In this document: positions 325-15,849 of the stretch, piece after piece
How positions within the stretch are numbered: position 1 is the first letter of the stretch
Layout: each line of letters begins with the position of its first letter
DNA from: Streptomyces sp. SID14436
Lineage (GTDB): Bacteria > Actinomycetota > Actinomycetes > Streptomycetales > Streptomycetaceae
Direction of reading: 5' to 3'
Length of the DNA stretch: 64,000 bases
Assembly: GCF_010548465.1 (NCBI RefSeq)
Contig: NZ_JAAGMD010000321.1
Span: 1 to 64,000 of the forward strand
Program-made: the position numbers and the translations under genes
The notes under the pieces: model-generated
What the model was told of the DNA's origin: nothing
What the model saw: only the letters and a program-made list of their open reading frames with translations
Database searches by the model: none

Positions 325-3300
325 ATGATGGCGACCCATGAGGCCGGCGGCGCAGACCATACCCAGGCGCTCTTGTGGTCTGCTCCCGAAGGTCCACTGC
401 CGGCGCCGCCCATCGACACCAGGGCGCAGGTGCTGCCCGTCGGCGACCTGGAGTGGCCCGACGCAGAGCGTCTGTTCCTCAGGCTGCTGCACACCGTCCG
501 GCCCGTCCAGTACGCCAAGCTCTTCGGTGTGCCGGGTCAAGCCCAGGGCGGGATCGACGCTTACGCTCGGCTTCCGCTCGACCTGGCGCACGGCGAATCC
601 AGCGGCCGGGACTACATCACCCTGCAGTCCCGGCGAATCAGGACGCTGACCGCAGCCAAGATTGAGAAGGCCGTCGACGACCTCCTGGCGGGGGAGTGGG
701 CGCACAAGACGGCGAGGTTTCACTTCGCCACCTCATTCGACTTGCAGGACACCAAGCTGGACACGGCAATCCGTGAGCAGACGGAACGGCTGGCCGAGCT
801 CAAGATCACCTTCGTTCCATGGGGCGTCCAGGAGGTCTCCAGCCTTCTAAAAGACCAGCCGCGCATTGTTGATGACTTCTTCGGCCGACCCTGGGTGGAG
901 CGCTTCTGCGGCACGGACGCAGCCCAAGGCCTGGCACATAATCTGCCCCAGCAGGACAGTCGAGAACTCCGAGCCGAGCTGCGCGAGCTCTACCACGCTG
1001 TCTTCTCCGCCCAGGGCGGAGTCCACACGGTCGACGACGCCGAGTCAGATGACACGTTCGTCGTCCTGGATGTCGATCCCAACCGACAGCGGCCTGACCG
1101 CTTCGACGCTGAACAGCCCGAGCCGGCCGCCGAAGACCAACGTTGGGCGCAGGACCCCGGGGACGGACACACCTACATCGCCTCACGGCTGGGCGGCTCG
1201 CGGCAGTCGTTCAGATCCGCCCACCAGCTCCTCGGGCGTAGCAACCAGGTAGGCCCAGCCACAGGTGCCGTCATGGCGGCCGATGAGTGGCTGGCCGGCG
1301 GCAAGTACCGGCTGCTCGTCGGCCGTCCGGGAGCGGGAAAGTCCAGCCTGTTGCGGTTCATCGCGGCCGACCTGCTCTCCGCTCAGCCGCAATCGGTCAC
1401 GCTGCAGCGGGAACACGGCACCGACCTGCCCGTCTGGCTGCCGTTCGGATTCCTGTGCCGCCACCTCGAAACATCGACAGAAAACTCCCTCGTCTCGGCC
1501 GCCGAAGCCTGGCTGAGGTCGCAGAGCGCCGCCCACCTGTGGCCGCTGGTAGAACGCGCGCTGCGGGACGATCGCCTGCTCCTGCTCATCGACGGCATCG
1601 ACGAGTGGAGCGACGTCAGCGCAGCCGAACGTGCCCTGGGAACCCTCGAGGCGTTCCTTGGCCGCACGGCGGCTTCAGCCATCCTCTCCACACGCCCGTA
1701 CGCAGTCGACCGCCTCAACTGGAGGCGACCCTGGGAGCAAGCGGAGATCACTCCGCTGACCGACCAGCAGCGCCGGACGATCTCAGCTGCCGTCCTCGGG
1801 CCAGCCGAACGACCGCTGGACATAGCAGCCAGTCCTGCGATGTGGAGCGGCGGCATCGAGGCGTTCCTGGCCCAACTGGAGACCATTCCGGAGCTCGCCG
1901 AACTATCTCGGTCACCCCTCTTTCTCACCCTGCTCGCCACAACCTGGCAAGGCGAGCCCCTCCCACGTCAACGGTTCAAGATCTACGCCCGACTCGTCGA
2001 ACTGCTCGTGGAGAAGCACCCTCAGATGCGCCAGCGTGCTTCACACGCTCACGGGGCTGTCCTGACGGCTGCAGAGGCCACGATGCTGTTCGCTGCTGTG
2101 GCTTACCGACTGCGCGTCAAAGACCCTACCGGCACTGTTACCAAGGCGGAGATGCGCACGCTCATCGTCGAGTCGATGACCGACGACCAGGTCCTCGGCT
2201 ATCCGCAACCAGAAGCCCGCCGCGTCGCCGATGCCGTCCTCGCCCTGGCGGAAGACGAATTCGGACTGATCGTGTCGCACGGCGCTGGCTCCTACGGCTT
2301 CCTGCACCGCGTAGTGCTTGACCATCTGGCCGGCGAGTACCTAGCCACCCGCCCCGCTGAAGAACAGAAAACAGTCGTTCAACGAACGGTGCAGGATCCG
2401 GCCTGGCGTGATGTGCTCCTGGCACTGCTGACCGCGCAGATCAGCTCTCACACCACCGAGCACCTGCTTGCCGCGGCCCTCGACACCGACACGCAACGGT
2501 GGGCAGACATCGATGGATACGAGCTGCTCGCCGAGGCACTCGCCGCCGGTGCCAAGCTCACTCCGAGAGCGCAGAGCCTCTACATCAACCAGCTCGTCGA
2601 ACGAGTAGAAACCCATCCCTCGCTGCCTCATCGCGCCAACCTCATCACCGCGCTCACCAGCATGCTCGCAAGCCACGCCGCACGCACGCACCTGCTGCCG
2701 GTCATGAAGCGCTGGCTCACAGCACCCCGCCCTAACCCTTCGCCGACCATGTGGGCGCTGCACGATCTGGATATCGACGACAACAGGGCCGCCGAGTACC
2801 TGCTGTGGGGCATGCGACACCCAGACGAGCAGGTGAAAGTCAACGCGGCAGCAGCCATCGCCCACCGATTCGGTGGACAGCCGCACATACTGAAACAGCT
2901 GATCACTTTCACCGAAACGGGTCCGTCCTCAGCCATTCAGGCCGCTGCCCTCCTCGCCCTCAGCCGCGGCTGGCCCGACACACCCGAGACCGCACGGCTG
3001 GTCGACTGGGCGCGGCGCCAGCCATCCAGGCCGCTCCGGCTGGTCGCTCTGCAGGCCCTGCAGCGCACCACCCCGTCAGGCGATGCCACCCTGTACCGGC
3101 AAGAAGAGCGAGACTGGCTGCTGTCCCTGCTACACAGGGAAGACTTCCACTCGGGCCCATGGCCCACAGCCGACCTCATCAACATAGCCGCCACCGCGGA
3201 TGCACAGGCAGCCGACTTCGCGCTGGAGACCCTGACGACGAACGGACGCAACGGCGGCGACCGCAGCCTTGCGTGGATCCTGGCCTGTCACGCATTCGCC

Positions 3301-5550
3301 GACGACAACCGCTTCAAGACCTGGGTAGCCGAGCAGCTCTCGGCCCCAGAACAAAACGGGCTGATCTTGTACGACGTCAGCATGATTCCCCAGCAGTGGC
3401 GCGCCGACCCGAACTTCGCGCAAGCTCTGCGGCCCTATGTTGAGAACGAGTTGGGAGGCGTGACGCCTTACCTCGCAGCCGGTCTCGCTACCGCACTTCC
3501 GCCCGCCGAAGCTCAAGCCCTGCTGCTGCGCAACCTGGACGGACACCGCCCCTACGCCGCAGCCCGCACACTGGTCGAGCAATACGCCGACGACGAGCAG
3601 GTCCGCACTGCTCTCACCCGCAGGCTTCGCGGCGACTTCGACCAAGCGGCTCCGATGGCCGGCGTAGCCGTAGATGTCCTCGGCCCGCAGGAGGGCTTCG
3701 CCGTCCTGGTGTCCCTGTTGCGCCAGCCAACCACCGATCACGGGTCCGAGAAGCACGTCGTTGTCGCCGAGACACTAGCCGAAACCTGGAAGACGTTCGA
3801 ACACACCGCTTCAGAACACCATGCGGAAGCTGAAGCCGCACGAGAAGTCCTTGCCGCCTACGATCCAGCCGAACTGGCAGCCCTGTGCACGGCGGTGAGC
3901 CCTCACCCGTTGATGTGGCACGTCCCTGCGGTCATCAGCGCCTGGCCTGATCAACCAGCCGTCCAGGATTTCGCCGACCGGCTCCTCCATGACACACGGC
4001 CCATCGTCTCGGGAATTGCGGACACCATTCCGGTCGCCATCCTCAGGGCCTACAGCAACAGGACCGATGTCCCGTCCCGCCGGATCCTCGACAAGACCCT
4101 CACCCTGCTCAAGCACATCGGCCCAGAGTTGCGCGAAGTCCTGGCGTTCGAACTCGCGCACAGCGCACTCTCCGTGGCCGAACTCGTCGACGTCATGACG
4201 GAATGGAAGAACGAGCCAGACACCGCTATCCGCCGCACCGCATTCATCGGGCTGACCCAAGTGATCAAGCGCCACCAGCAGGCTCACCACGACCTGGCGG
4301 GCTCAGCCACCTGGACAGCCGAGATGCAATGGCTGCGTGGCGAGATCAGGGACGAGCTGTGCGCCTACGGTCCCGAACTCGAAGAGCGCCGTCAACTGGC
4401 ATGGATCGGCATGCTCATGCTCAGCGATCTGAGCCTGATGGACGGCATTAGGGAAACCATCGGGCGTCCTGACGCGCCCAGCGTCACCCTCGATGTTCTC
4501 TACGGCCGTGACGTGGACCAGATCCTGGTGGACCTCGCCGCCGAGAACTGGGAGCAGCTGCGCTCTCATCTCGGCGATCAAGTCTTCGAGCGGCTGAACG
4601 GAAGGACCAGCAAACGAACGGCGAGTGAGCAACGGCGCCACGTCATATCGGCTCTGGCAACAGTTGCTTCCCGCTACCCCGCCATCGCTGAGCTGCTCCG
4701 CGATGAGGCGGACAACGACGCCACCCTGCGCCAAGACGAGCGCTTTCTCTCGTGGGCCAAAGAAGAGAACAGGGGCGACGAAGGGGTCCTGCGCGCCGTC
4801 GTGGCCAACCTCGCCCGGACGCACCACCGAGAGGGCTACGACCTCGACTCCCTGTTGGACCGAGACAGCTGGAGCGTGTCCGATGAGCTGTTCAAGGCCA
4901 TCCTCACCGAAGAGACGATCAGTACCCGGCCAGGCTTCGTTCAAGAAGGTGACGGGTTGGCTGCCTACACGCAGCTGTTCCCTTCGGCCCCCTTGGCCGC
5001 CGCCACCTTCCGCGACCTTGAAACGTGGTTCACAACAGACCGCGATGCTCGCCAACCCCGCGAACGGGGCAGCGTCCTAGGCATCGCGTTCGGCGCCGCC
5101 CCACCGAGGGATCTGCCAGCCCTCGCGACCCGCGCGCACACCCGATTCCGTCTGGATATCTTCGACAGGTACCTGTCGATGTTCACCAAGCCGCTGATGC
5201 GGCGGCTTCGCACCGACGCAGACGCCATTGAGGCGTTCAAGGATGCGCTCAACGACCCCATGGGAATTTGTGAAGACAGCCCCATCATGGCCGACCCATG
5301 GGACCCCATTGCCCACGCCCACCCGGAAGTGCAAGCCATGCAGCGCAGATACCTCTTCGCGGTGGTACTGCGGCAAGTTGGCGCGTTGCCGCAGGCGGAT
5401 GCGGCAGCAACCATCTCCATCCTCGAATCCGCATCACCCGACACCGTGGTGCACAACCCTTTCACCCACCACGAAGGCCCACTCTGCCTTGCCGTACTCG
5501 ACCTCGCCGTGAGCGCAGCTGATCCCGAGGCACTTGTGAGGCGGTGGTGA
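325..5550 (+). CDS. Giant NACHT (STAND) NTPase with Mrr-like N-terminus, probable anti-phage protein
   Basis: A 1,741-residue single-polypeptide STAND ATPase. Residues about 75-200 resemble an Mrr-type PD-(D/E)xK nuclease: GGIDAYARLP is followed by ITLQSRR (98-104) and LTAAKIEKAVDDLL. The lysine normally found in the E/Q-x-K motif is replaced (Q-S-R), so nuclease activity is uncertain. The NACHT core has Walker A GRPGAGKSS (333-341), Walker B LLLLIDGIDEW (418-428, Asp423) and the arginine-bearing ILSTRPY strand. The last ~1,000 residues are leucine/alanine-rich helical repeats, HEAT-like, the usual sensor region of STAND proteins. Known Avs and other bacterial NACHT proteins recognise phage products and then activate an N-terminal effector. 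That role here is inferred from architecture. The start is supported by AAGGGA at 311-316. It stands alone, with no partner gene in its operon. Confidence 0.85.
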   Translation: MMATHEAGGADHTQALLWSAPEGPLPAPPIDTRAQVLPVGDLEWPDAERLFLRLLHTVRPVQYAKLFGVPGQAQGGIDAYARLPLDLAHGESSGRDYITLQSRRIRTLTAAKIEKAVDDLLAGEWAHKTARFHFATSFDLQDTKLDTAIREQTERLAELKITFVPWGVQEVSSLLKDQPRIVDDFFGRPWVERFCGTDAAQGLAHNLPQQDSRELRAELRELYHAVFSAQGGVHTVDDAESDDTFVVLDVDPNRQRPDRFDAEQPEPAAEDQRWAQDPGDGHTYIASRLGGSRQSFRSAHQLLGRSNQVGPATGAVMAADEWLAGGKYRLLVGRPGAGKSSLLRFIAADLLSAQPQSVTLQREHGTDLPVWLPFGFLCRHLETSTENSLVSAAEAWLRSQSAAHLWPLVERALRDDRLLLLIDGIDEWSDVSAAERALGTLEAFLGRTAASAILSTRPYAVDRLNWRRPWEQAEITPLTDQQRRTISAAVLGPAERPLDIAASPAMWSGGIEAFLAQLETIPELAELSRSPLFLTLLATTWQGEPLPRQRFKIYARLVELLVEKHPQMRQRASHAHGAVLTAAEATMLFAAVAYRLRVKDPTGTVTKAEMRTLIVESMTDDQVLGYPQPEARRVADAVLALAEDEFGLIVSHGAGSYGFLHRVVLDHLAGEYLATRPAEEQKTVVQRTVQDPAWRDVLLALLTAQISSHTTEHLLAAALDTDTQRWADIDGYELLAEALAAGAKLTPRAQSLYINQLVERVETHPSLPHRANLITALTSMLASHAARTHLLPVMKRWLTAPRPNPSPTMWALHDLDIDDNRAAEYLLWGMRHPDEQVKVNAAAAIAHRFGGQPHILKQLITFTETGPSSAIQAAALLALSRGWPDTPETARLVDWARRQPSRPLRLVALQALQRTTPSGDATLYRQEERDWLLSLLHREDFHSGPWPTADLINIAATADAQAADFALETLTTNGRNGGDRSLAWILACHAFADDNRFKTWVAEQLSAPEQNGLILYDVSMIPQQWRADPNFAQALRPYVENELGGVTPYLAAGLATALPPAEAQALLLRNLDGHRPYAAARTLVEQYADDEQVRTALTRRLRGDFDQAAPMAGVAVDVLGPQEGFAVLVSLLRQPTTDHGSEKHVVVAETLAETWKTFEHTASEHHAEAEAAREVLAAYDPAELAALCTAVSPHPLMWHVPAVISAWPDQPAVQDFADRLLHDTRPIVSGIADTIPVAILRAYSNRTDVPSRRILDKTLTLLKHIGPELREVLAFELAHSALSVAELVDVMTEWKNEPDTAIRRTAFIGLTQVIKRHQQAHHDLAGSATWTAEMQWLRGEIRDELCAYGPELEERRQLAWIGMLMLSDLSLMDGIRETIGRPDAPSVTLDVLYGRDVDQILVDLAAENWEQLRSHLGDQVFERLNGRTSKRTASEQRRHVISALATVASRYPAIAELLRDEADNDATLRQDERFLSWAKEENRGDEGVLRAVVANLARTHHREGYDLDSLLDRDSWSVSDELFKAILTEETISTRPGFVQEGDGLAAYTQLFPSAPLAAATFRDLETWFTTDRDARQPRERGSVLGIAFGAAPPRDLPALATRAHTRFRLDIFDRYLSMFTKPLMRRLRTDADAIEAFKDALNDPMGICEDSPIMADPWDPIAHAHPEVQAMQRRYLFAVVLRQVGALPQADAAATISILESASPDTVVHNPFTHHEGPLCLAVLDLAVSAADPEALVRRW

Positions 5551-6279
5551 ATCGTCATTGCGGGTCGCCAATGCCGCTGAGGACCCGCCCGCGTGCCCCG
5601 GGCTGTGTCGGGGACGGCCGAAAAGTGGACCTGGCGGTGCCATCGGGGACGCGTACAGAGGACTTCGCGACGGCCTGCGGAACCGGATAATCCAGTCGCA
5701 GTCACCCCAAAAGACCTCAGTCGCCACGTGAGCCCAGTGCCTCTTGCCCGGCGTGGCGGCCAACACTGCGGGGCCTGCGGCTGCAGTTCGGCCCTTGAGC
5801 CGACCGCGGTCGGCAGGGTCCTGGTCCGGGCCGCCTGTGAAAGCGGAGACGCGCTTTGGGGCACTCGCCTGCAGGTCTCAGGGGCCCTGCATCATACGAA
5901 CGATCGTTTCACACCAGCACCCTGGAGGCATGGGGGGCCGGCTGGGAACCAGCCGGAGCTCACCGCGGCCGCTACGCCCACTTCCTCACCGCGGCGCGGG
6001 GCGCCTCAGCCTCCTGGACGACGGGCCTAAACCCGCCTACGTCCAGGCCGAGTTGCCCATGAGCGAAACCGCCGGGGACATCAGCCCACCGGCAGCATGC
6101 CGACGGAGCCCTCCCCATCACGCACGTCCTGTCACCCGGCCCATCAGCAGGTCGCCGGATTCCCCCAGCACCTCACCCCCAAGGACTCGTACTCCACGGC
6201 TGTTCTTCCCCGGCCAGGTGAACGGTGCCTTAAGTCCATGCCCCGGGCCGCTTGTCTGCCCGAGGGAGGGTGGGCGGTG
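5551..6279. other. Intergenic, no gene recognised
   Basis: About 730 bases between the NACHT gene and the convergent tnsC-like gene. Open frames exist in several phases, but their composition is that of GC-rich noncoding sequence and none matches a family I know. I searched it by eye for a transposon end matching the 20-bp repeats at 14.6 and 15.5 kb and found none. Confidence 0.5.
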
Positions 6280-7344
6280 TCAGATGGTGCGGCTGCGGCC
6301 GATGGCCAGGGATTCCAGCAGCTCCTCGGTGATGCGCTCCTGCTTGTTCCAGATCGCTTTCTGGGCGCCCTGGCTGACGAGCTGGGACAGGGCCCGCAGG
6401 TAGCCCTTGGTGCGGCGGTGCAGGTATTCGTGCAGGTTGGTCAGGTCGTCCGGCTGGTGGTGGTGCAGGCACAGGTTCTTGTCGAACTTGCGGACGATCT
6501 TCGTGAACAGTTTGTGGCCGTCCGTGTCGTAGCCGATCCGGCTGGTGCGCAGGGCGGCGTAGTCGCCCCAGATCTCCTCGTTGTCGGCCAGAGCGGTTTC
6601 CCGGTCCCGGGTCAGGGGATCGACGATGGAACGGGCGGCCCGTCCGGCGAAGAGGAAGGTGGCACCGGTGCTTTCACTGATCTCTTCCAGGTAGGCGAAT
6701 GACTCCTCGGCGTCCGCGCCGGCCCGCAGCTGCTCGATGCCGTCGATGAGGACCAGCAAGGTGGAGCTGTTGCGCATCACATGGCAGATGGAGCGGGTGG
6801 GGTCGCTGCCGCCGTCGTGCTTGAGGCCGAGGAAGGAGGCGAAGGCTGCCGGCCAGTTCCGCCGTCCGCCGCGGGCCAGGGGAGGCACCCGCAGCGCGAT
6901 CACCGGGATGCGGTTCTCGTCCGGCTCATACAGGCGGGCGATCTTGTTCTCGTAGTGGCGGCCGATGTACTGCAGGATCTCGGTCTTGCCGGTGCCGCGG
7001 GGGCCTTCGATGATGACACCGGTCTTGCCGTGGATGCGTTCCCGGTTGGCCAGCAGATGCTCGTGGACGACGACCAGGGCCCGGCCGATGGCGGGGGTGA
7101 CCACGGTCGGCATCAGGGCGTGATAGCGCAGCCGCAGGTCGTTGTCGGCGACTTCCGTGCCGGGCGGCGGGCTGTCGGCCAGGTCGGGCCGGGTGCGGTC
7201 CAGGGCGGCGAAGGTGCGCCAGTTGCTCAGGGTGTTCAGCCATACCGGCCGGGGCGCGGTGAACACCGGCGTGGGGGCGGGGGAGTCGATGAGTAGACGG
7301 ATGTCATCGTCTTCGGTCTCCTCGATGACCGGTGGCTGCGTCAT
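6280..7344 (-). CDS. TnsC/TniB-like AAA+ transposition ATPase
   Basis: A 354-residue AAA+ ATPase of the TniB/TnsC type, the regulator that links target selection to the transposase in Tn7- and Tn5053-like elements. Walker A is GPRGTGKTEI (Lys120) and Walker B is LLVLIDGIEQL (Asp201). The downstream FLFAGRAARS segment resembles a sensor strand. The ATG at 7344 overlaps the stop of the tnsB C-terminal frame by ATGA, so the two are translationally coupled; this also identifies the true tnsB end. Last gene of the minus-strand operon tnsA-tnsB-tnsC. Family assignment rests on P-loop plus context; a plain AAA ATPase is the alternative, but the neighbours make that unlikely. Confidence 0.82.
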   Translation of the reverse strand: MTQPPVIEETEDDDIRLLIDSPAPTPVFTAPRPVWLNTLSNWRTFAALDRTRPDLADSPPPGTEVADNDLRLRYHALMPTVVTPAIGRALVVVHEHLLANRERIHGKTGVIIEGPRGTGKTEILQYIGRHYENKIARLYEPDENRIPVIALRVPPLARGGRRNWPAAFASFLGLKHDGGSDPTRSICHVMRNSSTLLVLIDGIEQLRAGADAEESFAYLEEISESTGATFLFAGRAARSIVDPLTRDRETALADNEEIWGDYAALRTSRIGYDTDGHKLFTKIVRKFDKNLCLHHHQPDDLTNLHEYLHRRTKGYLRALSQLVSQGAQKAIWNKQERITEELLESLAIGRSRTI

Positions 7345-9714
7345 GTCCTGTCCTCCTGCGGGGGGTCGGTTTCGGCGGGCAGGTCCAGCAGGTGACGCGC
7401 CACGCTGTCGAGGCTGTCGTCCAGGTCACCCAGATCCGCCAGGAGCGAGGACACTTCGGTGTCCGCGCCGCCCGGAGCGTCCGGTCCGTGGGCGGGCCTG
7501 GGCGCGATCTCTTCTTCCGCGGGGGAATACAGGCTCGGCTCGTCCAGCTCCAGCACCGTCAAGGGTCCCAGCGCGTCCAGGTCCAGCGCCTCCGCGTCGG
7601 CGAACGGGTCGAAAACGCCGTCACCGGACGGCTCCCACCCGCCATCCAGCCCCGGCACGGGCGCGTAGCCGTCGGGCACGCTCACCACACCCGGGTCGTC
7701 CGGACCCTGTCCCGCCCGCTCCAGCAGGTCGGCCAGGACCTGCGCGATGGCTTCGTCCTGCGTGTGGCGGCCGCCGCGCGCCACGTACTCCGCGGTGGCC
7801 GAGTCCCACAGGTGCTGTGTCCACGGGGCGCCGATCAGGTGCTGGTGCTTGAAGACCGGCAGTGATCCACTCGCCGGAGCGGTGGTCGCGCAGCCACACC
7901 TGCTCGGGCGTGTAAGGGTTGTAGCGCAGCTCCCACCCGTCACGCTTCTTGCCCTTGAGCCCCGACGGCGTGTTGCGGACCTCCTCGAGTTCCCCTTTGA
8001 AGTTGTCGTAGGTGCGGTTCTTGAACCGGATGCCGTCATCGCGCACCCCGACCCAGGCGGTGGGCAGCAGCTGGAGGTAGTCCGCAAAGCCCAGCGGGAT
8101 CGGTAGGTAGCCAGCCGCCTGCACGCCCGCTGCGTACATCTGGTTCGGAGTCAACGGCGGCAGGTTCGGCTCGTAAGGGCTGCGCAGCTCCTCATGCGGC
8201 CGCGCCTGCCAGCCGACCGCGATCCACTCCTGCAGCAGATTGTCCAGCTCCTGCAGCGTCCACAGCCGGTCCGGATCGATCTCTTTCCCGCGGCGGCTGA
8301 AGTCCCGCCCGGTGTAGGAGTTGACGTGCTGGCTGAACAGCGACTTGATCGACGCAAAGGTCCGCTCGACGATCGCCTTGTCGGTCGGGGTGCGCTTGCG
8401 CGCCGGACGCACAGAGATGCCGAGGTAGGAGCAGGCGTCGAAGAAGGTTTGCCCGGTGAAGACCGTGCCGTGGTCGATCACGATCGTCTCCGGCATGATG
8501 ACCGGCCGGGCCGCTGCGTGCTCCATCCGCGCGTCGACCTCTAGCAGTTCCTCATACGGCAGATCCGAACGGGCCGCGGACGCGGCCCCGTCGAAGCCAG
8601 GCCGCATCGGGGCCGGCACCATGCACAGCGCCAGCAGCAGTGAGGCGTCCACTGCCTTGGTGGCCCGCCCCTTGCTCGTGCCGGTGCTCAGCAGCGCCCT
8701 CGTCTGTTGCCGGGTCTTGCGCCGGCCCGCAGTCTTGGGCCGTAGCACGGCTGCGATGATGCTGCGCGTGAAAACGTCGATGGCTGCCGTGAGTTCCACC
8801 TGGGTGGGCCGTCCGTCATCGCCCAGCACTTTGACATCCAGCGCGGTGGAGTCGATCTGCACGAGCTCGCCCGGCGCGGTGGCGGTGGTCACAGCGAACG
8901 GCGGGGCCGGACGGTTGAGACGGTCCTTGCGGCGCCGGGTGGGATCCCGCAGCTGAAGCGCGTCGATCCCCAGCCGCTTCAACAGCGCGTACAGCGTGGG
9001 GTCGGCCGGCACCTTCACGCCGGGGCCCAGCCTGGCCCGTGCCGTGCGCCGCAGGTTCTTGAACAGCGTGCGGGCGTCGGTGGCGGCTTCTTCTTTCGCC
9101 TGGCGTTCCTGCAGCGCCAGCAGCAGGTCCACCACCCGAGCATCGGTGCGCCCGTTCACCGTTGTCTGGCGGGTACGCCGCTTATCGATGAGCCCCCAGA
9201 TGTCCTCGCGAAGAAAGGCCAGCCGCTTGCGCTGGACCGTCTTCCACGACACCTTCCAACCCAGCACGGCCTGCAGCTCGGCAGCCTTGCGTTCATAGCG
9301 CTCGACCAGCGTGAACAGCTCCGGGTCATAACCTTCCCGCGGTCTGCTGCCCTCGGGGACCTCCGGCAGCAGACCGGTGTCGACCTCGATGACGTGCCGC
9401 CGCCACATCCGTGCTTCATGGGCGCACTCGGCACTGACCCCCTCCAGCATGGACCAGTTCGGCAGCGGCTCCGCCGACACCGGCCGGCCCGACCGGTCGA
9501 GCACGGCGAAGTCCCCGGCTGCGGCCAGGAACTGAATCGGCACCGACACCGCAGGCGCCGCCCCACCTGAGGCAGGCTCCAGATGCGCCGTCGTACCCGA
9601 CAGGGCCGAGACGCCATAGTGGCTGCCCATCCAGCGCACCTGGTCGCCGGGCGCCAGAATGCCGCGCGGCGCCAGGCCAGCGGCCGGGGGCTGGCTCTCC
9701 GGCACCACGCTCAC
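7341..9714 (-). pseudogene. TnsB/TniA-like DDE transposase, frameshifted near the C-terminus
   Basis: Retroviral-integrase-type transposase of the Mu/TnsB/TniA group. The catalytic triad is visible: Asp288 (ELVQIDSTALDV), Asp414 (TIVIDHGTVF) and Glu450 (AIVERTFASIKS), with 35 residues between the second Asp and Glu. A beta-barrel-like Mu C-terminal region follows. The opening frame runs 9714-7621, but homology leaves it at about residue 618: after EWIT the sensible continuation (PVFKHQHLIGAPWT) lies in the +1 frame, so one extra base sits near position 7860. The second frame runs about 173 more residues to 7341 and overlaps the tnsC start by ATGA, as expected for the authentic end. The start overlaps the tnsA stop (9711-9714). 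Could be a real inactivating mutation, a sequencing error or, less likely, a recoding site. Confidence 0.8.
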
Positions 9715-10469
9715 GCTGTCTTCCCCTCAAGGGGCTGCCCCATCGCCGACGGCATCCGGCCCGACAATCTGATCACACTGCTCGGGCCCATGGCCTTGTT
9801 CCACTCCATGCCCAGCTCCTGCCGCCACAGCAGGTGATACAGGCGCGGCAGCGTCGACAGTCGCGGCAGCCCCGTCGCCCGTACCCCCTCCTCCAGCTCG
9901 CAGGGAGTCCGGAACGCGGCCTTCAGAGCCTGCTCGACCTCCCGGTCGCCCCACCGCGGGTGCCGGTAATGCGACACCCACCGCAGGTTCGCCAGCGCCA
10001 TAGGTCCCGGAATCCGCGGCATCCCCAGCTCCCAGCCCGCCTCCTGACAAGCCTGGCGCAACACCTGCTGCTGACGCTGCCACCGCGGACTCGGCCCGCT
10101 CGCCGGAGGGCAGGCAACGACCAGCGTCGCCCCCTGATCCGTGCGCACGAAGAAGTCCGGCACGACGCTGCGCTCCCGGCCCCGCGCACGCCACTTGATC
10201 TTCGCGGACCAAGCGGTGAACTCCGTCACCGACGGGCTGAAATCCAGCAGCATGGCCACCGCCAGCACGTTCATGGACCGGCAGCCCACGTGCTTGCCGG
10301 TCGTGGCGGCCCACCACCAGGTAGCAATGCTGCGCTGAGAGGGATGCCGGGCCGGACGCCACACCTCGCCCCGGCGGGTGAGCGGAACAGAGCCTGCCTG
10401 GGCGACGGGGACCGTGATGCTCCTGCTGCCGTCCTCAAGGCGGTGGACCGCCATCAATGCCTCAGCCAT
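9711..10469 (-). CDS. TnsA-like transposase endonuclease subunit
   Basis: A 252-residue protein resembling the TnsA-like heteromeric transposase endonucleases, which cut the 5' ends of Tn7-type elements while TnsB cuts the 3' ends. The core shows the family order: a short N-terminal segment, SMNVLAVAMLLDFSPSV, then TEFTAW with a candidate catalytic Glu, VVPDFFVRT with the Asp, and a strand LVVACP where family members normally carry a catalytic Lys or a D-V-R/K. That lysine is not obvious here, so cleavage competence is doubtful. I prefer the ATG at 10469, which has GGGAG four bases upstream, over a GTG at 10514. It overlaps tnsB by four bases, indicating coupled translation as the first gene of the operon. 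Confidence 0.72.
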   Translation of the reverse strand: MAEALMAVHRLEDGSRSITVPVAQAGSVPLTRRGEVWRPARHPSQRSIATWWWAATTGKHVGCRSMNVLAVAMLLDFSPSVTEFTAWSAKIKWRARGRERSVVPDFFVRTDQGATLVVACPPASGPSPRWQRQQQVLRQACQEAGWELGMPRIPGPMALANLRWVSHYRHPRWGDREVEQALKAAFRTPCELEEGVRATGLPRLSTLPRLYHLLWRQELGMEWNKAMGPSSVIRLSGRMPSAMGQPLEGKTA

Positions 10470-10776
10470 CGTGCTCCCGCATCTGTCCGGCCTCTGCAAA
10501 TCCTCATATTGCACGGCGAGTTGACTTTAGTGCGGGGGGAGATGGCCAAGGGTCAAATACCGTCATCCTCAAAGCTGCCGACCGTCCCGCCGACGGCCGG
10601 CGTGACGCCCCGCAGGGCGAGACCATGACCACCCTCACCTCTCCCTGCAGACCGCTGACCTGGACGGTCCCACGCCAGCCGCTTATCCGTCCTGTCCCGG
10701 GCCGCACCTGCCGACACAAGATCCACGATGACCGGATGCCGACGCCGCACGCCGTCGGCCTGCCAGATTCGGCTGC

Positions 10777-12831
10777 GTGCGAGAAGACCACCCCGACACC
10801 TCCGATCTCCACGCCCGCGTGGACGGGCTCCTCGCCGACCTGGCAGCACGGCGCAGCCCCCTGCCACCGGCCTGCGAACGGACCCGGCTGCGCGAGGCCG
10901 CGGGCCTGTCCCCTGCACAGGTAGCGGACACCCTCGTCTGCCAGGCTCAGGACATCGAGGCATGGGAGGCCGGGAATCGGGAACCGATCGGTGTTCGTCG
11001 CACGGCTTACGCGCGGCTTCTCAAGGGCCTTAAGCACATGGAGAAACCGAAACGGGACGACAAGCTCGTCCCCGGCGAGAGCACCGCATCACCCGCACGG
11101 CCCGCACGGCCCACAGCACCCACGTTGCCCGTCGGTCCGCAGCAGCCAGCGCTCTTCCCCGCATCCGCCGAAGCACCACCACGCCCGCCAGTGGCTAGCG
11201 AACCACCCGTCACGCCCACCGGGCCGCTGGCCGTTATCGACCACGACATCTTCCTGGTCGCCCACTTCACCAACGGCACCCGCCTGCCCCTGGACGCGGA
11301 CGACCTTGTCGGCCTGCTGGAGTGGACGCTGCGCAGCGGTCTGCACCAGGAACGGCTGTCCCCCCAAGGCAAGGACAGTGACCCGCTTATCGTCCTGACC
11401 CCCGCAGCGAGTGCCGCACTGCACCTGCCCGCCCACCTGGAGGACCGAACCGCCCTGTGCCTTCCTGCCGGCCATCCCGTCCTGACGCAGCTGGGGCAGG
11501 CAGGCTTTCTCCTCACCCGCCGCGGCTTCGCCCCGTGGGCCGGGATCTACCGGCCGGTCGTGAACAACAGGCGCGCCTCGGTACACGTCGCCGTCATGGC
11601 CTGGGGAGCCCTGTCTCAGGACGGGTGGAACCTCCCACCACTGCCGCCGTCAGACCTGGCACGGCTGCTGGGCACCTACGCGGCCCGGCTCTTGACCCCC
11701 AGCGGCTCCACCGCGGTCTGCGGCGTCAGACTGATGACAGCCCTGCGGCCACCCACCAAAGCGACCTACGACCCGGCCACCCTCAAATGGGTGTCCGGGC
11801 CCAACCCCGGCGCCCTGCACAAGCCGTTCGAGCCAGCGCCCCCAGAAGCCCCCGACGCCCACCCCCTGGCTAAAGGCCGCCCGCCGGAGCAGGCCATGGA
11901 GGAGGAAGCCTGGGACTGGAGCCGCCCGCCCGACCAGCAGGAGACAGCCGACTTCCCGCACGTCGTCGGACTCGACACCAACATGGCCTTTATCGTCGCC
12001 GCCTCCAGGCTGTCCGTCGGCCGCAATGCCCCGCCCCGCCATGTCACGACACCCGCCTTCGACGAGAAAACTCCCGGCGCCTGGTACTGCGACCTCAGCC
12101 ACGCCCCGCACGACCCGCGGCTGCCCTCGCCTTTCACCGCCACCGGTCAACCCCCGACCAAACCCGCCTGGTACACGACCGTCACCCTCGCCTACGCCAA
12201 GGAACTCAACATCGAGGTCCGGCCTATCGAGGCCTACGTCCGCGACGATCACGGCTCATATCTGGACCCCTGGTACACGCGACTGAGAGACGCCTACCTC
12301 GCCACCATGGCCGACCTCGGAGTACACAAGGACATCCCCCAGGCCGACTACCTGGCCGCCATGAAAAGACTCTCGACGGCAGACCCCGCCCTGCTCGCCC
12401 TGCTCGCAGCGATCAAAGCCACAGGAAAAGGCGGCCTCGGCAAACTCCGCGAAGGCCCCCGTGCCCCCGCCGCCCCCTACACACGCTGGCCCGCACTCAA
12501 CCAGCCCACCTGGCGCCCCGACATCCGTGCCGCCGTCATCTCACGCACCCGCGTCAGCCTGCACCGCAAAATGCGCAGGATGCTCACCGAGACCGGCCGC
12601 GGCCCGCTTGCCGTCCTCTCGGACTGCGTCATCTACCCCGCCCACCAGCCGACCGCCCTCGACGTCGTCCCCACCGGCCCCGACCAGACCGGCATCAAGG
12701 GACTGCTGTGCCTGGGCGTCAACCCCGGCTTCGTCAAAGAAGAAGGCGTTCAGACCATGGCCTGGTACCAGCACCAGCACACCCAAGGCCTCAACCCCGC
12801 CCGCTACATCAAAGCCCACCCCGACGCCTGA
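10777..12831 (+). CDS. tap: Telomere-associated protein Tap
   Basis: A 684-residue protein with the full layout of Streptomyces Tap, which binds the telomere 3' overhang and recruits terminal protein Tpg for end-patching of linear replicons. An N-terminal helix-turn-helix (RLREAAGLSPAQVADTL ... EAWEAGNREP) is followed by a proline-rich linker and the conserved body starting at PLAVIDHDIFLVAHF. It ends in the typical PARYIKAHPDA. The body carries blocks that look like a family B polymerase palm: VVGLDTNMAF (Asp400), IKATGKGGLGKL (Lys547) and AVLSDCVIYP (Asp616). That resemblance is my inference. Start is GTG at 10777, with only a weak ribosome-binding site. Unusually, tpg does not follow directly: a minus-strand tniQ-like gene intervenes. 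Confidence 0.9.
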   Translation: MREDHPDTSDLHARVDGLLADLAARRSPLPPACERTRLREAAGLSPAQVADTLVCQAQDIEAWEAGNREPIGVRRTAYARLLKGLKHMEKPKRDDKLVPGESTASPARPARPTAPTLPVGPQQPALFPASAEAPPRPPVASEPPVTPTGPLAVIDHDIFLVAHFTNGTRLPLDADDLVGLLEWTLRSGLHQERLSPQGKDSDPLIVLTPAASAALHLPAHLEDRTALCLPAGHPVLTQLGQAGFLLTRRGFAPWAGIYRPVVNNRRASVHVAVMAWGALSQDGWNLPPLPPSDLARLLGTYAARLLTPSGSTAVCGVRLMTALRPPTKATYDPATLKWVSGPNPGALHKPFEPAPPEAPDAHPLAKGRPPEQAMEEEAWDWSRPPDQQETADFPHVVGLDTNMAFIVAASRLSVGRNAPPRHVTTPAFDEKTPGAWYCDLSHAPHDPRLPSPFTATGQPPTKPAWYTTVTLAYAKELNIEVRPIEAYVRDDHGSYLDPWYTRLRDAYLATMADLGVHKDIPQADYLAAMKRLSTADPALLALLAAIKATGKGGLGKLREGPRAPAAPYTRWPALNQPTWRPDIRAAVISRTRVSLHRKMRRMLTETGRGPLAVLSDCVIYPAHQPTALDVVPTGPDQTGIKGLLCLGVNPGFVKEEGVQTMAWYQHQHTQGLNPARYIKAHPDA

Positions 12832-12863: not shown

Positions 12864-13931
12864 CTACTGCGTCGGCCGCCACGGCATGCTCGTCATCCGC
12901 GCTCCCAGACGCCACGGAAGACACGACGCCTCCTCCAGCGGACCATGCACCGGAACCACACGATGCGGCTCCAGCAACGCCAGCGGCACACTCCGGGGAT
13001 GCGCCCGCGCATCCTGCCGCGCCAGACGCTCGACGACCGGCACCGTATTGCGGTGCGACATCAGCCACGCCTCCAACCCCCGATGCCCCCCGGCGGCCAT
13101 CTCCTCACCCATCCCCAGCCGTTCACCCACCCACTGCACCCACCGCCCCGTCGACCACCCCGCAGGACCGCCCGCGAAATTGCGCCCCACCGCCCGCTGC
13201 CGCTCCCGCACGGCCATCGCCTCCGCCACGATGACCACCTCCGGATACACCACCAGGGGAACAGCCCACAGCGCCGAACGATCCACCCCCAAAACCTCCT
13301 GCCGCGCCCGCCACACCCCACGCCAGGCCATCTGACGGCACTGCCACCAATACACCGCCACCTGCTGCGCATCCGCCAGCAGAGCCCGCGCGTACAGACC
13401 TGTACGACGCTCCAGACCCACCCGCCGCACGTGCGCCTCCACCACCTCTGGCAACCGCTCGAGGCCGACCTGGAACTGCCCCCGGCCCACAGCCGTCCAC
13501 CGTCCGTGCCGCACACACACCGCCCACTGCCCACCGCCCACCCGCCACACCGGACGCTCACCGAGCCCAGCCGCGCACAACGCACAGGCCTGCACCGGCA
13601 TCCAGTTCTCCGGCCAGGCTTCCACCTTCACCTGGTGGCGGGCCCGCGGACCGATGCCGCTGTCGCCGAGCGACACCAGCGCCCGTTCCAGATGCGGCAA
13701 GGGCCGTCCACTGACCTCCGCCAGACGCTGACGCGCCGCAGGCCCCAGACGCACCTCCTCAGCACCCGGATCAACCGCCCGGATGGTCCTCGGCGCACCG
13801 ATGTACTGAGCCAGCTCCTCGAAGGCCATCCCATTGCGCACCGCGAGCCGCCACAGATACGACGCGATCGTCTCGCCGCGCACCATCACCACACGTCCCG
13901 GCAACCGCGGGAGCGGCTCTTCGATCCTCAT
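12864..13931 (-). CDS. TniQ-like target-selection protein between tap and tpg
   Basis: A 355-residue TniQ/TnsD-type protein. The N-terminus has the family signature: LPRLPGRVVMVRGETIASYL, then WRLAVRNGMAFEELAQYIG. A zinc-binding segment follows (ACALC ... WAVCVRHGRW, the C-x2-C ... C-x2-H pattern) and then a tryptophan-rich helical region. TniQ proteins choose the target site for Tn7/Tn5053-type transposition together with TnsC/TniB, so this is the probable partner of the tnsABC operon at 6.3-10.5 kb. It is convergent with tap (33 bases between stops) and divergent from tpg (69 bases between starts), an arrangement that breaks the usual tap-tpg operon. Start ATG 13931 is chosen because it opens the family signature; the frame continues upstream but overlaps tpg. 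Confidence 0.78.
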   Translation of the reverse strand: MRIEEPLPRLPGRVVMVRGETIASYLWRLAVRNGMAFEELAQYIGAPRTIRAVDPGAEEVRLGPAARQRLAEVSGRPLPHLERALVSLGDSGIGPRARHQVKVEAWPENWMPVQACALCAAGLGERPVWRVGGGQWAVCVRHGRWTAVGRGQFQVGLERLPEVVEAHVRRVGLERRTGLYARALLADAQQVAVYWWQCRQMAWRGVWRARQEVLGVDRSALWAVPLVVYPEVVIVAEAMAVRERQRAVGRNFAGGPAGWSTGRWVQWVGERLGMGEEMAAGGHRGLEAWLMSHRNTVPVVERLARQDARAHPRSVPLALLEPHRVVPVHGPLEEASCLPWRLGARMTSMPWRPTQ

Positions 13932-14000
13932 GCAGTGATCGTCACAACCCCCGCCGCCGGCGCCACACAAACAAGCCACCCACCACGAAAGCTGCCCGCC

Positions 14001-14570
14001 GTGCCTTTGAGGCTGAGCGCCGACACCGTCCAGGAAGCACTCGACCGGGCCGACTCCCGGCACTGGACCCGCAACCCGCCCCGTTCCATGCGGGTCCGGC
14101 TCACCTACCTCCTCAAGCACTACGAGCCTGCCGCCCTTGCCCGTCGGCTCCAGACGACACCCTCCCACCTGGACGCTCTGCTCGACGCTCAGCAGGTAGC
14201 GGAAGACGACCTGCATAACGCAGTGGAACGCGAAGTCGTCCGGATATGGCAGCCTCGCGTCCGCCGCCGCGCCCACGCCACCCTCCTCGCCAACGGCGGC
14301 CGGATGACACTCAGCTTCCGCGCATGGCTGGGATTCACCGCAACAGCCGGATCAAGTGACGACCCACGCCTGCGCTTTTTGAGCCTGCACCTGGACGCCC
14401 CCTTTCCGGAACGCCTGTTCACCGCCCGGCGCATCGGAGCACCGGAATCAGAACTGCAAGCCATCCTCAACGACGCACTCAGCACGTGCTACTTCCACCG
14501 CGGCCGGCCCGCACACCTCAGGGAGAGCGTGAGCCTCGACCGCATCGACTTCCTGGAGTTCTACTACTGA
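14001..14570 (+). CDS. tpg: Terminal protein Tpg
   Basis: A 189-residue protein matching Streptomyces Tpg, the protein covalently attached to the 5' ends of linear chromosomes and plasmids that primes end synthesis; the family is usually about 185 residues. Visible family features are the N-terminal segment MRVRLTYLLKHYEP, a helix-turn-helix (AALARRLQTTPSHLDALL), the WQPRVRRRA basic block, FRAWLGFTATAGSSDDPRLR and the closing SLDRIDFLEFYY. The GTG at 14001 opens the homologous region; the same frame is open far upstream but only as a shadow of tniQ. It has its own promoter region in the 69-base gap, because tap lies beyond the oppositely oriented tniQ gene. Transcription independent of tap is therefore likely. 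Confidence 0.88.
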   Translation: MPLRLSADTVQEALDRADSRHWTRNPPRSMRVRLTYLLKHYEPAALARRLQTTPSHLDALLDAQQVAEDDLHNAVEREVVRIWQPRVRRRAHATLLANGGRMTLSFRAWLGFTATAGSSDDPRLRFLSLHLDAPFPERLFTARRIGAPESELQAILNDALSTCYFHRGRPAHLRESVSLDRIDFLEFYY

Positions 14571-14612
14571 GATCGATCCGCTCCTCCCGCTCCCTGCAAT
14601 GAGCCCGTGAGC

Positions 14613-14652
14613 CGAAGCACGGTAGTTGTCACATAGGCAGGCTTGCTGTCAC
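14613..14652 (-). repeat. Two abutting 20-bp transposase-binding-type repeats
   Basis: Two head-to-tail copies, at 14613-14632 and 14633-14652, of the pattern CGARGCA-N7-TGTCAC (reverse of GTGACA-N7-TGCYTCG). The first forms most of the left inverted end of the 1,043-bp element. The second is a weaker match in its first half (ATAGGCA). Confidence 0.7.
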
Positions 14653-14719
14653 CGGCGAAGCTGCGGGTCGCTGGGCCCGCCCATCCGGGAAGTCAGCGCC
14701 TCGGGCACAATCAGGAGCC

Positions 14720-15460
14720 GTGCCCACCCCTCCTGATCCCGCAGTCCTGTACCCCGATGTCGCGGCCTGCGGCAGCCTCGCCGCGGCGCTCCGGGCCGAG
14801 GCGGAAGGCTGCCTCGCCGGTGTTCCCGTCACGTCCTCGGACTCTGATCCGCTGCTTTACGCGACCGTCACAAGCATGCTGCCGCACCGCGAGCCGCTGC
14901 AGATCAGCGTATGGTCGCACGAGCGGCGGTGGTCGATCCGCGGCACGGAACCGTTCCAGACCCTGTCCCTCATTGATGGCAGGACGGACGACCTGGCGGA
15001 GGTCGCCAGGGCCGCCCGGGCCTGGCACGACGGTGAGCCGCTGAACGGCATTCGCCAGGCGGCACCCTTCGTGCACCTGACTGGCCGGTTCGAGGTGCCC
15101 GATCTCGATTCCGCGCGACTGGTGGAATCTGAGTGGCAGAGCATGCGCGTGGAGGCGAGCGGGCTGGACTACGTCTGGCAGAAGACGTACCAAGCCCTGA
15201 TTGAGGCGGCGCACGCCGAGCCGGCGCTTCGTGCCCTCTACCCGTTCACGAGCCACTGGGCGTTGCGCTTCTCGACCAGCACCCGCCCGCACCTGACCGT
15301 CGTCGGACCGTGCCTGACCGCGGGCAGCGACGGCATGTACGGGGTGGGGACAGGGTTCATCACGCCGGACCTTGGCCTGTTCGCCACAGCGCACGAGGCC
15401 GTGGCGGTGGCCGTGCACCATATGCCGTCCGGCCTCGGCCCGGTCACGCTTGGCGGATGA
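14720..15460 (+). CDS. DUF6193 family protein, passenger of the compact element
   Basis: A 246-residue protein I recognise as DUF6193, an actinobacterial family of unknown biochemical function often labelled a natural-product-biosynthesis protein. Family-like blocks are VWSHERRWSIRGT, the segment ending YPFTSHWALRFSTSTRP, HLTVVGPCLTAGSDGMYGV and the closing LGPVTLGG. No signal peptide or membrane segment is visible. The start is the GTG at 14720; AGGAG lies only two bases before it, closer than normal, so a slightly different start or leaderless translation is possible. The gene fills almost the entire 1,043-bp inverted-repeat element, with 111 bases before and 190 after it, so it is the element's only cargo. 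Confidence 0.7.
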   Translation: MPTPPDPAVLYPDVAACGSLAAALRAEAEGCLAGVPVTSSDSDPLLYATVTSMLPHREPLQISVWSHERRWSIRGTEPFQTLSLIDGRTDDLAEVARAARAWHDGEPLNGIRQAAPFVHLTGRFEVPDLDSARLVESEWQSMRVEASGLDYVWQKTYQALIEAAHAEPALRALYPFTSHWALRFSTSTRPHLTVVGPCLTAGSDGMYGVGTGFITPDLGLFATAHEAVAVAVHHMPSGLGPVTLGG

Positions 15461-15518
15461 CCTTGCCCGACAGAGGGGCCGTGTGGGTGCAACCACCGCC
15501 CGCATCGCCCCGGCACTG

Positions 15519-15645
15519 GTGACAGAAAGGCTGCCGAACAAGCACTTGTGACAGGTCGAATGCCTCGTTGGTGACAACCAGGCTGCCTCGACCGTCCCCA
15601 TTCACCACTTCAGCCGGTCCTGCTGGTGACAACTACCGTGCTTCG
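15519..15645 (+). repeat. Four spaced 20-bp transposase-binding-type repeats
   Basis: Copies of GTGACA-N7-TGCYTCG at 15519-15538, 15548-15567, 15571-15590 and 15626-15645. The third and second match the consensus exactly; the first ends TGCCGAA; the fourth is part of the right inverted end of the element. Spacings between starts are 29, 23 and 55 bases. Together with the two left copies this gives the unequal 2 + 4 site layout seen at ends bound by TnsB-like proteins. Confidence 0.72.
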
Positions 15646-15849
15646 GCTCAGAGCCCGGGGCGGGGCAGGTGGTTGACCTCGGTCGCCCTCACGCGCTGCT
15701 TGCCAGCACGGGACTCGGGGCGGAAGGCGGACGCGGTGCTGTGGGACGTCGACCGTCGCGTTTCTGCCGCCTTTGACGCTCTTTCAGCTGCCATACTAGA
15801 TTGAGTCCCCGATCAGATAACAGAGTCCGCTTGTAGAAGGGAGGCTGGC

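Follow-up and report, generated by a model that had tools for sequence, protein, structure and literature searches.

A probable Tn7-like transposon without transposition genes of its own, found behind the telomere-protein gene tpg in Streptomyces

Analysis of a 64,000-nucleotide stretch of DNA from Streptomyces sp. SID14436 (contig NZ_JAAGMD010000321.1; hereafter the window) revealed a mobile element of 1,043 bp with two ends (14608-15650), which is very probably a non-autonomous Tn7-like transposon that sits at an attachment site formed by tpg and that would be mobilised in trans by a relative missing from the assembly. The element occurs in one copy in the home assembly. It encodes no transposition proteins and carries a DUF6193 gene alone, which bears out the original prediction of a non-autonomous transposon with a single gene. 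The features of the element and of its surroundings are listed in Table 1.

Table 1. Positions of the element, its parts and neighbouring genes in the window.
Feature	Position	Strand	Remarks
Neighbouring Tn7-like set	6280-10514	-	TnsC 6280-7344, TnsB 7621-9714, TnsA 9711-10514
tap, telomere-associated protein	10777-12831	+	NCBIfam NF047542, 880 bits
TniQ-family gene between tap and tpg	12864-13895	-	Pfam TniQ 7.3e-9 on longer frame; start approximate
tpg, telomere-protecting terminal protein, apparent attachment gene	13989-14570	+	NCBIfam NF047541, 128 bits (cut-off 90); start approximate
Left copy of flanking duplication GAGCCCG	14601-14607	+	7 bp
Left end (L)	14608-14653	+	conserved 46 bp, tpg-proximal; HMM match 1-46, E 4e-16
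Left terminal inverted repeat	14608-14632	+	25 bp, exact inverted copy of right repeat
L site 1, putative TnsB site, GTGACA-N7-TGCTTCG	14613-14632	-	exact motif match
L site 2, degenerate	14633-14652	-	2 mismatches; kept across family
Cargo gene, DUF6193 protein, 246 aa	14720-15460	+	Pfam PF19692, E 4.9e-37
Right end (R)	15518-15650	+	conserved 133 bp; HMM match 1-133, E 1e-35
R site 4, degenerate	15519-15538	+	3 mismatches; motif scan and family comparison
R site 3	15548-15567	+	exact motif match
R site 2	15571-15590	+	exact motif match
Right terminal inverted repeat	15626-15650	-	25 bp, exact inverted copy of left repeat
R site 1, within right terminal repeat	15626-15645	+	exact motif match
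Right copy of flanking duplication GAGCCCG	15651-15657	+	7 bp

The perfect 25-bp inverted ends, and the GAGCCCG heptamers at both edges, were found to be exact. No further copy of the terminal 25-mer was present in the window with up to three mismatches allowed (0 in 100 shuffles), and the chance that two random 7-mers drawn from the window agree is 1.9e-4. Six internal repeats had also been claimed; the six positions hold, two in L (minus orientation) and four in R, but only four of them match the motif GTGACA-N7-TGCYTCG exactly, the other two being degenerate. This layout is fixed, with all six positions kept in 7 of 7 elements compared. Multiple asymmetric sites at each end, as in Tn7-like transposons, agree with the suggestion of TnsB-type end-repeat arrays, and we therefore refer to them as putative TnsB sites.

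Judging from a dN/dS of 0.25-0.43 among three copies of the mini-element (window, L035 and L121), the DUF6193 cargo is under purifying selection. Relatives of this gene are common in Streptomyces without the ends of the element, which were seen in only 1 of the 40 loci found (L137). Since the relatives mostly lack ends, the DUF6193 gene is probably a host gene that was captured by the element. Searches of the open-licence PMC literature listed no paper that contains the word DUF6193.

When the 1,043-bp sequence was used as a query against 392 genomes of the genus, matches were obtained in 191, many of which are relatives of the DUF6193 gene only, or weak; some matches cover the internal gene, others just the outermost ∼50 bp on the left or ∼135 bp on the right. 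With the R end by itself as query, 62 of 293 genomes from the order gave a match; they represent 4 of 9 genera, and 59 of them belong to the home genus (own genome included). In a plasmid collection there were 59 matching records, 55 of them from Streptomyces. The expectation that the same ends would recur elsewhere was thus borne out by copies at other loci in other genomes and plasmids. When profiles of the two ends were run over 80 loci, the window and L034, two-ended elements of 573 to 8,119 bp were obtained. All ten cargo proteins submitted to a Pfam scan were matched: three alpha/beta hydrolases, an SDR, an APH(6)-like kinase and an aldo/keto reductase, as well as HxlR and LysR regulators and HEAT and Fic proteins. 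The family is mostly without transposition genes and is found mainly in Streptomyces. One left end (L034, 1442-1487) lies within an IMG/VR viral contig of 41,880 bp, and elements of this kind may also ride on phage-like DNA.

A fixed position behind tpg, which formed no part of the original prediction, emerged from the left ends. The window element starts 37 bp past the tpg stop codon, and 28 of 71 left ends sit 34-41 bp past such a stop (12 of these at exactly 36), so that tpg behaves like the gene-linked attachment site, used at a fixed distance, of Tn7-like elements. The L end faces tpg in these 28 cases, the tally being one of same-strand cases and left ends only. The 71 comprise 68 ends from fetched loci, with the window and L034 included and with one (L045:5998) that is probably a right end misread as left, plus three from named plasmids that were added by hand (L118, L120 and L121), two of which lie at tpg; loci L124-L132 were fetched later and stand outside this number. 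One tpg-linked end, L105, is biased, as it comes from loci fetched for holding tpg (L105-L113); the query that recovered most tpg-linked left ends held no tpg itself. With a tpg profile, 31 left ends were found within 70 bp. For the other 43 left ends, no recognised tpg stop lies within 45 bp; some of them are tandem second copies or flank tpg remnants, and others lie elsewhere.

Decayed copies of tpg and elements stacked in tandem both occur at sites beside tpg. At L046 (2013-7279), L049 (6442-9053), L054 (4986-6947) and L137 (1694-3453), two or three elements follow one another at a spacing of 4-6 bp, the first three loci being linked to tpg and the last counted as a tandem pair only. Such stacks suggest that one site is used repeatedly and that target immunity is weak. 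It is likely that TniQ reads the 3' end of tpg. A tRNA as the attachment site was rejected, since twelve loci yielded only one tRNA, which lies in L041, ∼5.6 kb from the tpg-side element there. Two left ends (L065 near 13166 and L078 near 12957) stand 32-35 bp behind genes that end in a helicase-associated (HA) domain, possibly a second attachment gene; L084 resembled these sites, and its gene had no Pfam match. Titles and abstract starts in the open-licence PMC literature yielded no description of transposons behind tpg.

Transposition genes were found in larger members with the same six-site ends as the window element. L048 is a contig of 7,037 bp that is bounded by these ends and encodes TnsA, TnsB, TnsC, TniQ and a small AAA/kinase-like protein; the contig consists of the element only and hence has no flanking site. 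The 8,119-bp element of L118 encodes TnsA, TnsB, TnsC and TniQ in the same order, with TnsB 89% and TniQ 80% identical to those of L048. In these autonomous members, which carry the full set of genes of Tn7-like transposons, the R end adjoins tnsA. Relatives with TnsB of ∼61% identity have a weaker R end at the same place (L119 and L123; L122 barely). Among sister elements, weak R ends were present beside tnsA where TnsB was 63-68% identical (L192-L196), and no R end was found beside tnsA where identity was near 60% (L197-L199). Similarity of the ends thus drops with TnsB identity, from 89% through ∼61% to ∼30%, where nothing is left.

A DNA search for the cognate TnsB in 384 genomes returned L048 itself as the one full-length close match, a single long fragment in G003 (94% over one third of the gene), and no match in the home genome. 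An intact autonomous copy at tpg was not found, L118 being situated in a DNA methylase gene. At tpg, L044 retains gene scraps of the L048 type (TnsC 90%, TniQ 82%) and L045 retains TnsA and TnsB scraps of that type, which ties this transposase lineage to the tpg site. L055 (10388-12043) holds a rearranged remnant in which an R end, tnsA and a truncated tnsB run straight up to a broken tpg.

The target duplication of this family is 5 bp long. Among 38 complete L/R pairs, 18 had an exact abutting 5-bp repeat, one a repeat of 4 bp, one (the window) of 7 bp and 18 none, some of the latter being members of tandem arrays; in the main table, a 5-bp match was present in 16 of 36 pairs as compared with 0.64 with shuffled partners. 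The linear plasmid NZ_CP108618 of S. avidinii carries a 1,046-bp mini-element with a NUDIX gene, and NZ_CP107888 of S. nojiriensis (L118) carries the 8,119-bp element; both are flanked by a doubled TCGAC and occupy the same base of the methylase gene, and all four related plasmids examined (NZ_CP108246, NZ_CP108628, NZ_CP074103 and NZ_CP066832) have the uninterrupted site with a single TCGAC. The empty-site check that had been proposed therefore succeeded at this site of the family but gave nothing for the window locus itself, of which no empty version was found in plasmids. The S. avidinii mini-element aligns to the 8,119-bp element apart from two gaps, one of ∼1.0 kb and one of ∼6.05 kb that spans tnsABC-tniQ, and it follows that mini-elements can arise by internal deletion.

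This raises the alternative that the mini-elements are old, immobile relics, deleted internally in place, which never moved as mini-elements. We consider it unlikely. L132 and L118 share one base, so that the mini-element of L132 may indeed be an in-place deletion, and the decay of many sites and the rarity of a full cognate TnsB point the same way; yet the window, L035, L121 and L137 (here as a tandem pair) carry a DUF6193 mini-element of near-equal length, each at a site of its own, and the first three have different flanking duplications. The DUF6193 mini-element must therefore have moved since it took its present form.

As for the source of the transposase, the original prediction had pointed to the Tn7-like genes next to the element, and this is probably wrong; we give such mobilisation by the TnsABC/TniQ set of the window a slim chance. 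This set is located about 0.7-8.3 kb away, its TnsB was the only one returned by a protein search of the home genome, and its TniQ gene directly adjoins tpg. However, this TnsB is 29-30% identical to that of the family, a distance at which end similarity is nil, and no R-end-like sequence was found next to tnsA, either in this set or in its nearest relative in NZ_CP107787 (TnsB 87% identical, tns block 84% identical in DNA). Moreover, L121 has the same mini-element behind tpg, and its gene annotation, which is known to be incomplete, lists no tns gene within 9 kb. The TniQ-family gene of the window did not match the TniQ of L048 at E 1e-3, and on this comparison it is not the cognate TniQ; a relative in L120 (NZ_CP107787), 34% identical, stands apart from tap-tpg. 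The neighbouring genes (6269-10514) form a different Tn7-like set, divergent from tap, with many relatives near plasmid ends and several of the more distant ones close to the ends of linear plasmids, and we regard the TnsABC-tap set as a candidate telomeric transposon. Further upstream, at 325-5550, the window encodes a large NACHT protein with HEAT repeats, possibly a defence protein.

The window element itself does not show the 5-bp duplication of the family. Its closest copies, in L035 (95% identical, TTTCA) and in L121 (95.5% identical, GGACC; S. microflavus plasmid NZ_CP108576), both have 5 bp, and the 7 bp in the window could be a truly longer cut or GCCCG with two extra bases at one end; duplicated GCCCG with GA matching by a 1-in-16 chance would mimic a 7-bp repeat. 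At L071 (12001-14024) the right flank is ∼2 bp (GA) off relative to the duplication, as perhaps in the window, and may represent a variant right terminus. The proposal of a separate, undescribed family with a true 7-bp duplication is very improbable, since the repeat, although perfect and hard to obtain by chance, is replaced by 5 bp in copies of ∼95% identity, would look identical after a 2-bp extension of one end such as the shifted flank of L071 resembles, and is bounded by ends whose site layout equals that of the TnsABC-TniQ elements of the family.

The family is best compared with Tn7, which inserts at attTn7 downstream of glmS with a 5-bp duplication and which has asymmetric end sites and its tnsA-side end proximal to the attachment gene. 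With Tn7 and Tn7-like transposons that use TnsABC and TniQ/TnsD, it shares TnsA, TnsB, TnsC and TniQ in autonomous members, asymmetric arrays of end sites, the 5-bp duplication, and a fixed distance behind a conserved gene, the 3' end of which is presumably read. In contrast to Tn7, the attachment gene is apparently tpg instead of glmS, the tnsA-side end is distal to it, and most members are without transposition genes. Hsieh et al. reportedly described, in Science in 2025, telomeric transposons of linear bacterial genomes, which are bounded by a single transposon end on one side and by the telomere on the other. These share with the present family Tn7-related machinery linked to the ends of linear replicons, but the window element has two ends and a flanking duplication and lies behind tpg, which does not fit that definition. 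Neither is it a MITE, as these are short and without coding sequence whereas the window element carries a conserved gene. A survey of 6,549 elements (PMC8649781) describes an actinobacterial clade of Tn7-like transposons with no experimentally characterised member, to which the autonomous members possibly belong. The survey locates the ends of transposons with core Tn7 proteins, and since it is keyed on these proteins, elements lacking tns genes would fall outside it.

Taken as a mechanism, transposition would start with an autonomous relative of the L048/L118 type, whose TnsB would occupy all six sites (two in L, four in R) and, together with TnsA, would excise the element. TnsC with TniQ would then insert it, left end first, ∼36 bp past the tpg stop, the 3' end of tpg serving as an attachment site that insertion leaves intact. 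An autonomous copy that loses tnsABC-tniQ to an internal deletion, while retaining or acquiring a cargo gene, could give a mini-element that from then on would be mobile in trans only.

The linear replicons of Streptomyces depend on tap-tpg. We lean towards the broader view that a Tn7-like lineage has its home at tpg of these replicons and exists chiefly as small cassettes without an engine that stack in tandem behind tpg and form a platform for gene exchange next to the genes for telomere maintenance. With tpg as a safe site, the family could be carried along on linear chromosomes and plasmids and could deliver single genes beside telomere genes, such as hydrolases, reductases, an aminoglycoside-kinase-like gene, regulators and DUF6193. 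The natural trio of mini-element, autonomous element and empty site lends itself to tests of mobilisation in trans and might also yield a tool for site-specific insertion in Streptomyces. If this view is true, tpg joins the attachment genes used by Tn7-like elements.
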